A program made the translations under genes and the position numbers. DNA of 64,000 nucleotides, from positions 434,001-498,000 of the forward strand of contig NZ_JADPJL010000065.1 in NCBI RefSeq assembly GCF_023073415.1. The letters are read 5' to 3'. This DNA comes from Bradyrhizobium sp. 190 (GTDB lineage Bacteria > Pseudomonadota > Alphaproteobacteria > Rhizobiales > Xanthobacteraceae). The notes below the pieces were generated by a model. It saw nothing but the letters and a program-made list of their open reading frames with translations. It was not told the origin of the DNA and did not search any database. The first letter of the stretch is position 1; each line of letters opens with the position of its first letter. Below, piece after piece: positions 878 to 2,110 of the stretch.

Positions 878-906
878 TTGACGGCGGCGCCAAGCTGCCG
901 CATAAG
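878..906 (+). promoter_or_regulatory. Candidate promoter of the asd leader
   Basis: TTGACG (878-883) and CATAAG (901-906) are separated by exactly 17 bp. Transcription would begin about 912-915, at or next to the ATG of the leader peptide at 915. The leader would therefore be leaderless or nearly so, which fits the absence of a ribosome binding site before it. The leaderless trpL attenuator of Sinorhizobium is a known precedent. Confidence 0.55.
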
Positions 907-914
907 TCCGCGCC

Positions 915-986
915 ATGACGACTTCGACCAAAGCGACCACGAAAACCAAAGCACCCTCCGGGGGCTCGGGAGCCGTGCGCGCGTAG
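915..986 (+). CDS. Thr/Lys-rich leader peptide of asd (attenuator)
   Basis: A 23-codon frame, ATG to TAG, reading MTTSTKATTKTK then APSGGSGAVRA. Six of the first eleven codons are Thr (codons 2, 3, 5, 8, 9, 11) and Lys occupies codons 6, 10 and 12. It is followed 25 nt after the stop by a rho-independent terminator and then by asd, the branch-point gene for threonine, lysine and methionine synthesis. The layout is that of thrL- or trpL-type transcription attenuators. No Shine-Dalgarno is seen. The peptide probably acts only as a translated sensor of charged tRNA-Thr and possibly tRNA-Lys. Confidence 0.7.
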   Translation: MTTSTKATTKTKAPSGGSGAVRA

Positions 987-1019
987 TCGAACGATCGCAT
1001 TATCTGAACCGAAGCCCCG
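961..1019 (+). promoter_or_regulatory. asd: Candidate antiterminator of the asd attenuator
   Basis: GGGGCTCGG (961-969), inside the last part of the leader frame, can pair with CCGAAGCCCC (1009-1018), giving nine base pairs with A1012 bulged. This captures the 5' arm of the terminator at 1012-1019, so the two structures exclude each other. Ribosome stalling on the early Thr codons would leave 961-969 free to pair. A ribosome running to the stop at 984-986 would cover or pass this arm and let the terminator form. Confidence 0.6.
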
Positions 1020-1043
1020 CCTGAAAAGGACCGGGGCTTTTTT
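1012..1043 (+). terminator. Rho-independent terminator in the asd leader
   Basis: AAGCCCCG (1012-1019) pairs perfectly with CGGGGCTT (1032-1039) across a 12-nt loop, and six T residues follow (1038-1043). It lies between the leader peptide and the asd start at 1085, not after a structural gene, which points to conditional termination. Confidence 0.8.
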
Positions 1044-1084
1044 ATTGCCCGCAGCATTGATGCTCAACCAAAGAGGATAGACCC

Positions 1085-2110
1085 GTGAGCCACGAACCCG
1101 TTGTTGCCATTGCCGGCGTGACCGGCGCTGTCGGCGCCGAATTCATCGCCACCATAGACAGGCGCGCCTTCCCGGTCCGCAAGCTCAAGGCGCTGGCCAG
1201 CGCCCGCTCGGCCGGCAAGACCATCGATTTCCGCGGGGAGAGGATCGTGATCGAGGAGCTCACCGCAAAGTCGTTCGAGGGCGTCGACATCGCGCTGTTC
1301 TCAGCCGGCGGCGGCATTTCGCGGAAGTTTGCCCCCGCAGCGGTGAAGGCCGGCGCTGTCGTGGTCGACAATTCCTCGGCCTTCCGGATGGACCCAAACG
1401 TGCCGCTGGTGATCCCCGAGATCAACGCCAACCGCATCAGGGAGCACAAGGGCATCATCGCCAACCCGAACTGCTCGGCGATCACGGCGCTGGTGCCGCT
1501 GTGGCCGATCCACCGGCAGAACCGCATCAAGCGCATGATCGTGTCGACCTATCAGGCAGCGAGCGGCGCAGGTGCGGCCGCGATGGAAGAGCTGGTGGAA
1601 TCGACCCGCGCCTATCTCGACGGCCGGCCTTTTACGCCAAAGGTCATACCGCTCCCCTACGCCTTCAACGTCTTCAGCCACAACACGGCGATCGATCCCG
1701 AGACCGGCTACAACGACGAAGAGACCAAGGTCATCAAGGAGACCCGCAAGATCTTCGAGGACGATCAGATCGCGATCGGCGTCACCTGCGTCCGCGTGCC
1801 GGTGCTGCGCGCCCATTGCGAGGCGATCACGTTTGAATGCGAGAAGCCGATCACGGAGCATGACGTGCGCGCGATCCTGGCCAACGCGCCGGGCGTAAAG
1901 ATCGTGGACGACCGCGCAAAGAACTACTTCCCGATGCCGATCGATGCGTCAGGCCAGGACGACGTCCTGGTCGGCCGTATCCGCCGGGATCTCAGCGACG
2001 CAAGCGGCCACTCGATCTCGATGTTCGTGTCGGCCGACCAGCTCCTGAAGGGCGCGGCCTTGAACGCGATCCAGATCGCGGAGTTGCTGCCGCAACGCGC
2101 GATGGCGTGA
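1085..2110 (+). CDS. asd: Aspartate-semialdehyde dehydrogenase
   Basis: Reduces beta-aspartyl phosphate to aspartate semialdehyde with NADPH in the cytosol, the common step to lysine/diaminopimelate, threonine and methionine. The protein has 341 residues, the usual length. The Rossmann motif GVTGAVG lies near residues 11-17, and the catalytic cysteine is C130 within NPNCSAI. The downstream RVPVLRAHCEAI segment holds the conserved catalytic-site His. The start is GTG at 1085. The gene is probably controlled by the Thr/Lys attenuator immediately upstream. No partner gene follows in the same direction. Confidence 0.96.
   Translation: MSHEPVVAIAGVTGAVGAEFIATIDRRAFPVRKLKALASARSAGKTIDFRGERIVIEELTAKSFEGVDIALFSAGGGISRKFAPAAVKAGAVVVDNSSAFRMDPNVPLVIPEINANRIREHKGIIANPNCSAITALVPLWPIHRQNRIKRMIVSTYQAASGAGAAAMEELVESTRAYLDGRPFTPKVIPLPYAFNVFSHNTAIDPETGYNDEETKVIKETRKIFEDDQIAIGVTCVRVPVLRAHCEAITFECEKPITEHDVRAILANAPGVKIVDDRAKNYFPMPIDASGQDDVLVGRIRRDLSDASGHSISMFVSADQLLKGAALNAIQIAELLPQRAMA

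Follow-up and report, generated by a model that had tools for sequence, protein, structure and literature searches.

The leader described here lies in a 64,000-nt stretch of Bradyrhizobium sp. 190 (contig NZ_JADPJL010000065.1, positions 434,001 to 498,000; this whole stretch is called the window, and positions are counted from its first letter). With a probability of about 0.85, we conclude that the element preceding the genome's second copy of asd, the gene for aspartate-semialdehyde dehydrogenase, is a ribosome-mediated transcription attenuator that reads threonine and lysine, resembles thrL of E. coli and controls this asd. Attenuation by translation of a leader is a known kind of regulation, and this is a new case of it, more widespread than was thought in an earlier note on this DNA, a reading of the sequence alone whose attenuator interpretation is well supported. 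The computation backs three things: the parts are conserved, the pairing between them changes in step between lineages, and the block of Thr and Lys codons fits the point at which the pairing collapses. That the element senses charged tRNA, and how Thr and Lys weigh against each other in it, we infer. The element offers a testable answer to how Bradyrhizobium and other Alphaproteobacteria read their supply of threonine and lysine.

In the mechanism that we propose, the RNA would begin at or near the leader ATG, and the leader would be translated without a Shine-Dalgarno sequence. When charged tRNA-Thr or tRNA-Lys is low, a ribosome would stall within codons 2-12 and cover a first segment (segment 1), allowing segment 2 (961-979) to pair with segment 3 (996-1018); the terminator would be blocked and asd would be transcribed. 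When both amino acids are ample, the ribosome would reach the stop codon at the tip of the antiterminator and disrupt it, and the terminator (1011-1043) could form, releasing a short transcript of about 130 nt.

The leader of the second asd

All parts of the element lie on the forward strand and in one order. A sigma-70-like promoter (878-906) has a -35 box, TTGACG, at 878-883 and, after a 17-nt spacer, a -10 box, CATAAG, at 901-906. The leader open reading frame (ORF; 915-986, translation MTTSTKATTKTKAPSGGSGAVRA) has 23 codons followed by TAG, and its ATG at 915 begins 8 nt past the -10 box. Transcription is thus predicted to start at, or just before, this ATG, and a start at the ATG would leave no room for a Shine-Dalgarno sequence, making the leader ORF leaderless. 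Six Thr codons (2, 3, 5, 8, 9 and 11) and three Lys codons (6, 10 and 12) stand among its first twelve and form the putative sensor block (codons 2-12, 918-950). Downstream of a terminator and a probable Shine-Dalgarno sequence (AGAGGA, 1072-1077) is asd itself (1085-2110, start codon GTG), which scores 407.9 bits against NCBIfam TIGR01296 (cut-off 324.2) and contains Pfam domains PF01118 and PF02774. A short leader ORF rich in Thr and Lys thus matches the pathway of the gene behind it.

The window sequence is also predicted to form the two alternative structures expected of an attenuator. In a fold of 913-1050, segment 1 (950-956) is able to pair with part of segment 2 (961-966). Segment 2 is the 5' arm of the predicted antiterminator, and segment 3 is its 3' arm, whose 3' end doubles as the 5' arm of the terminator. 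The earlier note had proposed that GGGGCTCGG (961-969) pairs with CCGAAGCCCC (1009-1018). These stretches can indeed pair (961-966 with 1013-1018 and 967-969 with 1009-1011), but the predicted pairing was drawn too short: GUGCG at 975-979 also pairs with CGCAU at 996-1000, and with these added pairs the stop codon (984-986) sits at the tip of the antiterminator. The terminator stem places AAGCCCCG (1012-1019) opposite CGGGGCTT (1032-1039) and runs into six T residues (1038-1043). The whole hairpin, 1011-1040 (segments 3 and 4), folds at -18.6 kcal/mol compared to a mean of -9.4 for shuffled sequences (z -3.8), and none of 200 shuffles was as good. A simple terminator scan did not report it; in our reading, its loop and bulge exceed the loop limit of 8 in that scan. 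Every coordinate in the earlier note proved correct, and the frame with its Thr and Lys codons (base for base), the T-run terminator between frame and asd, and the promoter placed directly before the ATG are all as it described them.

The element is not one of the catalogued leaders that we searched for. Rfam leader families, riboswitches and the T-box gave no match at gathering scores in the window or in 19 related loci, and a permissive Rfam scan of 860-1090 returned a single match, to asX2, on the opposite strand (E 0.1). The families searched included Thr_leader.

The same arrangement recurs throughout Bradyrhizobium. We fetched 110 loci by their asd: the top 30 from one search of the genus and, from a second search, the top 80 among 575 relatives. 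These loci lean to close relatives, overlap in species and contain 91 distinct leader sequences. Among the 80 named records, 76 are titled Bradyrhizobium. (One fetched contig, JAUEPE010000002.1, is titled Frankia sp. RB7 yet carries a Bradyrhizobium-type asd and leader, so that its label or assembly looks wrong.) All 110 loci have a leader ORF with at least four Thr codons followed by the terminator, and all match the promoter pattern of TTGACn, 17 nt and a -10 box, with the 17-nt spacing unvaried; the distance from the -10 box to the ATG is 8 nt in 97. The leaders are 22-24 codons long everywhere except in L098, for which an in-frame ATG further upstream was chosen by the script. The T-run is 20 to 90 nt from the asd start codon (median 37). 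In three of the 110 loci this gap is 20-21 nt, which we judge too small for a separate asd promoter. In L086, L090, L093, L096, L100, L110 and other Bradyrhizobium loci, the stretch from the terminator to asd contains a palindromic repeat (GCATGATCCGGAAAAGTGG...GATCATGC or a similar sequence), which leaves both undisturbed.

Codon conservation was counted in the 83 distinct leaders of exactly 23 codons. Thr5 is kept in 81, Lys6 in 83, Thr8 in 81, Lys10 in 82 and Thr11 in 83, so the Thr codons are conserved in close relatives, as the earlier note had required of its own proposal. Thr8 is written with three synonymous codons (ACG in 52 leaders, ACC in 28 and ACT in one). Lys6 (930-932) and Lys10 (942-944) are always AAA where they are Lys and never AAG, in a genus that is G+C-rich; if AAA is a rare or slow codon, its use at these two positions might sharpen the sensor.

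Less selected counts come from whole genomes. The asd subfamily of the window was found in 92 of 98 Bradyrhizobium genomes; five of the others have only a copy about 45% identical, and one has no match. A covariance model of the leader (R1) matched 93 of the 98 at E <= 1e-10. The five that it misses (G032, G041, G048, G053 and G097) are all among the six in which this asd was not found. The sixth, G091, has a leader match though no asd was found there, possibly at a contig end. Two genomes carry two copies of the window-type asd (G071, on contigs C255 and C310, and G076, on C1), and each copy is immediately preceded by a leader match, which indicates that gene and leader were duplicated as one unit. 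The other asd of the present genome (G000:C54:95175-96167), about 45% identical to that of the window, has no Thr/Lys leader in its upstream 400 nt, where the richest short frame has four Thr or Lys codons in its first 14.

The earlier note had suggested a comparison across Bradyrhizobium, Rhodopseudomonas and Nitrobacter. The first part could be made; the latter two genera were mostly unavailable because this second asd occurs in only 2 of the 47 genera of the family (8 of 149 genomes at E <= 1e-100). In L117, from another genus of the family, the leader is also present. A sample of 385 genomes across the class extends the distribution further. The Asd subfamily was found at E <= 1e-115 in 28 of these, two of them from the genus of the window, and 17 of the 26 genomes of other genera, from 11 families, have a Thr/Lys leader ORF at the same place (L155, L156, L157, L160, L162, L163, L164, L166, L167, L169, L170, L171, L172, L180, L184, L185 and L186). 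Examples are MRFATKTTTTKTTTFGGPARTCA (L180, read from the second ATG) and MPSFMFKKTTTTTKTTAGGACAELFG (L184). An ORF filter flagged 14 of the 17, and L162, L166 and L171 were recognised by eye; a frame that the filter flagged in L158 lacks a Thr/Lys block and was not counted, and L168, in which asd is cut near a contig end, was given no verdict. In all 18 non-Bradyrhizobium leaders, 6-10 nt separate the ATG from the end of the best promoter match, although choosing the best match introduces some bias.

Antiterminator pairing and the place of the codon block

The evidence that the antiterminator and terminator are mutually exclusive comes from comparison between lineages. In a MAFFT alignment of distant leaders (A2), the arms were poorly aligned, and it was dropped for pair counts in favour of a swap test, in which each segment 2 is paired either with its own segment 3 or with that of another leader. 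The leaders folded (28: 10 from Bradyrhizobium and 18 others), like the 42 rows of alignment A1, were picked for diversity. With one leader per genus (n=15), the 2:3 duplexes average -36.4 kcal/mol for own pairs and -31.7 for swapped pairs, and none of 20000 permutations reaches the sum of the own pairs; the same 0/20000 was obtained with all 28 sequences. Three leaders (L167, L170 and L001, the last being that of the window) run counter to the trend in their rows, and in seven leaders arm 4 was positioned manually. A swap test between lineages for segments 1 and 2 also gave 0/20000; for L001 the script chose another local hairpin. In the window, the competition of segment 1 for segment 2 is seen only as a fold. 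Within Bradyrhizobium, 89.1% of cells pair at the antiterminator, compared to 40-50% when the pairing is slid.

A second line of evidence relates the codons to the structure. For each position of the ribosome, we hid all bases up to 13 nt beyond the first nucleotide of the A-site codon and folded the remaining RNA as far as the point where the 3' arm of the terminator begins. In the window, predicted antiterminator pairing is close to maximal while the A site is inside the sensor block and collapses past it. In every one of the 28 leaders the best Thr or Lys codon gives at least 80% of maximal 2:3 pairing, and in 27 it gives at least 95%. In the 18 non-Bradyrhizobium leaders, Thr and Lys make up 145 of 250 codons before the point of half-maximal pairing and 7 of 179 after it, and moving the hidden edge changes this little (149/268 and 3/161 at an offset of 10; 132/232 and 20/197 at 16). 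In the 10 Bradyrhizobium leaders the counts are 89 of 130 before and 1 of 91 after. E. coli thrL, used as a positive control, gave the same curve, although there we measured how far the final 24 nt pair with any upstream sequence; four of the 28 leaders gave the same curve under that measure too. The regulatory codons thus appear to be placed so that stalling on them would free segment 2.

Several results weigh against an attenuator and should be set beside these. Within Bradyrhizobium, covariation in the antiterminator does not exceed that of shuffles (0.032 compared to 0.035); the alternative pairing is kept across lineages, and the covariation that the earlier note proposed to look for is not seen within the genus. 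The antiterminator of the window, taken singly, is not beyond chance: 38 of 200 shuffled versions give an equally good fold, and 42 of 200 equal or exceed it in pairing. Only 8 of the 28 leaders are matched by 10 or fewer of 200 shuffles, with a mean of 13.5 expected pairs in the own sequences and 6.7 in the shuffled ones. The structural case therefore rests on the comparison across lineages. In codons 2-13 of the Bradyrhizobium leaders there are 11 distinct synonymous and 20 non-synonymous changes, which is no strong coding signal over the block; the signal lies in five positions. In seven leaders, individual sensor codons give less than half of the maximal pairing; mostly these are codons 2-3 or the last codon of the block. 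Of the 26 class-sample genomes, eight have no visible leader (L158, L159, L161, L165, L181, L182, L183 and L187), and in L162, L166 and L171 the leader holds just two or three Thr codons and two or three Lys codons. That no 2:3 pairing is left once the ribosome has reached the stop codon follows from the design of the calculation, the ORF then being hidden, and the informative result of the modelled stalling is the position at which pairing falls. Finally, with no ribosome, when a classical attenuator should terminate, 20 of the 28 leaders keep at least half of maximal 2:3 pairing, so the folding calculation does not reproduce termination in the absence of translation. thrL likewise keeps 8.6 of 11 in the same calculation, and the test therefore says little about that state.

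Other explanations and known systems

The output of the switch need not be the same everywhere. The window and the other fetched Bradyrhizobium loci have a strong hairpin followed by a T-run (six T in the window), as expected for intrinsic termination. Among the 18 non-Bradyrhizobium asd leaders, TTTTT follows the hairpin in 5 and is lacking in 13; intrinsic termination is therefore not the common output, and leaders of the second kind may act differently, perhaps at translation. This raises the alternative that the leader mainly controls translation of asd, with stalling deciding whether the asd ribosome-binding site is open. In 6 of the 13 (L160, L162, L167, L169, L172 and L180), and also in L163, an exact inverted repeat of the GTCTCC...GGAGAC type covers the asd Shine-Dalgarno sequence; L156 and L166 look similar by eye, and the script's crude assignment of start codons may miss some. 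No inverted repeat of that type is visible in the window. The counts without a ribosome and without a T-run led us to lower our confidence in transcription attenuation to the value given above and to raise that in translational control, which we nonetheless regard as unlikely for the window.

A leader in Sinorhizobium bears on the same question. The earlier note was aware of no Thr attenuator described for an alphaproteobacterial asd, but a Thr/Lys frame ahead of such a gene has been suggested once: as far as the accessible text of one study goes, a translated upstream open reading frame (uORF) of Sinorhizobium meliloti detected by ribosome profiling, SEP5, has six Thr and three Lys codons, lies in the 5' untranslated region of an 'aspartate dehydrogenase' gene, is described as conserved only in Sinorhizobium and is proposed as a possible leader peptide; that text gives no RNA structure for it (PMC10117765). 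The annotated aspartate-semialdehyde dehydrogenase of S. meliloti Ak57 is directly preceded by an ORF that ends in RKTTAKTTTKTV, with six Thr and three Lys codons, and we infer that this ORF is SEP5. Its Thr and Lys counts equal those of the window leader. In contrast to the latter, it precedes the other type of asd (about 42% identical to that of the window), its codon block ends at the stop codon, and it has no T-run. The record came from a plasmid collection in which the only Asd matches are at 52% identity or less. In this leader (L214:1169-1460), TCTCTCCCCG has two possible partners, CCGGGGACAG in the arm of a nearby hairpin and the Shine-Dalgarno sequence of asd, CGAGGAGAGA, an arrangement that suggests translation control and to that extent favours the alternative above.

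We considered it quite improbable that the 130-nt unit of promoter, short ORF and terminator is an independent small RNA or small-protein gene with asd merely behind it. The unit has its own promoter and terminator, and the leader match without an asd in G091 fits such a gene, unless the contig ends there. The terminated trp attenuator RNA of Sinorhizobium is reported to work in trans, in the part of the source available (PMC7298713), and an additional role in trans of the terminated asd leader RNA is possible. However, the unit stands directly before asd in all 110 loci (themselves selected through asd) and in 11 further families, its codons fit the pathway of the next gene, and in some loci the 20 nt between T-run and start codon leave scant room for another asd promoter. 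That the terminator belongs to the upstream PepSY gene (211-831, same direction, with no forward-strand terminator reported by the scan between it and the leader) and stands beside a chance Thr-rich frame is hardly credible, given that, among the 571 frames of 13-45 codons running from ATG to stop on the two strands of the window, the leader alone has at least six Thr or Lys codons in its first 12, that all 84 such hits in 399 kb of related loci (nested ATGs counted apart) fall at the leader position, and that the leader is conserved class-wide.

A transcription attenuator at asd would have close counterparts. Like E. coli thrL, the window element has an ORF of regulatory codons, the logic of alternative 1:2, 2:3 and 3:4 pairings, a terminator before an aspartate-pathway gene and the same curve in stall folding. 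It differs in having Thr and Lys codons rather than Thr and Ile, in preceding asd rather than thrA, in its leaderless start and in having no Rfam match. The accessible portion of work on Sinorhizobium trpL (rnTrpL) describes ribosome-mediated attenuation in a rhizobium by a leader mRNA that starts at the AUG of the leader peptide, there with Trp codons and before trpE, and names a Bradyrhizobium TrpL (PMC7298713). For B. japonicum, 192 transcription start sites are reported to coincide exactly with start codons, according to the available part of that study (PMC4842269). A study of alphaproteobacterial RNA motifs mentions, in its accessible portion, an ilvB leader peptide and no Thr leader (PMC1273637). 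In the titles and abstract openings of open-licence papers, a body of literature that does not take in the 2004 survey of Vitreschak et al., we found no description of the Bradyrhizobium element, of its family across the class or of a Lys leader preceding dapA.

A sister leader before a second dapA

Weak R1 matches led to a related leader, with one or a few conserved Lys codons, in the same genome at G000:C50:67344-67467 (minus strand; loci L121 and L188), before a second dapA. The product of this gene scores 206.2 bits against TIGR00674 (cut-off 206.15) and matches PF00701; the other dapA, on C65, scores 321.3 against TIGR00674. Other weak matches (L119, L120, L138, L140, L141, L145-L150, L152-L154, L174 and L175) appeared by eye to be ordinary terminators or chance. 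The dapA leader is present in 17 of 19 family loci found with that DapA protein, the genome's own included, and in the class sample 9 of 9 other dapA loci have a leader frame bearing Lys, each with one or more Lys codons in the range of codons 8-14 (relatives L189-L204 and L216-L224). Two of the class loci, L218 and L221, were missed by the script and read by eye; L218 has no nearby stop codon, and the ORFs of L221 and L222 are short.

Folding covered 20 of the dapA leaders, including L137, L143 and L151, which were found through the leader itself and stand outside the tally of 19; L205 and L206 have no dapA leader and were left out. A Lys codon gives at least 80% of maximal 2:3 pairing in 19 of the 20 and at least 95% in 13, TTTTT follows the hairpin in 17, and only 3 keep half of maximal 2:3 pairing without a ribosome. 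Swap tests gave 6/20000 for 2:3 and, with 14 leaders, 0/20000 for 1:2. Taken singly, 5 of the 20 are matched by 10 or fewer of 200 shuffles. From its sequence features, the dapA leader is probably a lysine attenuator, and it raises the question whether one Lys codon can suffice as a sensor. This sister leader may be the more surprising part of the analysis.

In G000, aspartate kinase (C56 and C80), asd (C46 and C54) and dapA (C65 and C50) each occur as a pair whose members both exceed the family cut-off or are clear paralogues, and two of the three second copies carry an attenuator-like leader. No such leader was seen by eye upstream of hom or the main aspartate kinase; upstream of the second aspartate kinase, inspection was complicated by an uncertain start codon. 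These observations suggest that one attenuator layout has apparently been adapted to two steps of one pathway. We lean modestly towards a broader proposal, that second copies of aspartate-pathway genes in alphaproteobacteria carry members of one undescribed attenuator family, leaderless and ribosome-mediated. The member before asd would read Thr and Lys, and the member before dapA would read Lys, in some cases with a single conserved Lys codon; where a T-run is lacking, the antiterminator would have been rewired to translation. If so, these bacteria would have a lysine sensor that relies on leader translation, with no riboswitch, and that feeds a reserve branch made only under shortage. Both leaders are short and conserved, and are within reach of simple reporter fusions.

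A third type of leader, found in L173 (G021:C1:6600155-6600290, minus strand) and L142, combines a short ORF (MIKSSRTFNRNHMTRFGWAVGGVAR in L173) with a hairpin and a T-run. The next ORF in L142 encodes a 96-aa protein resembling what we take to be a DUF1127 protein.

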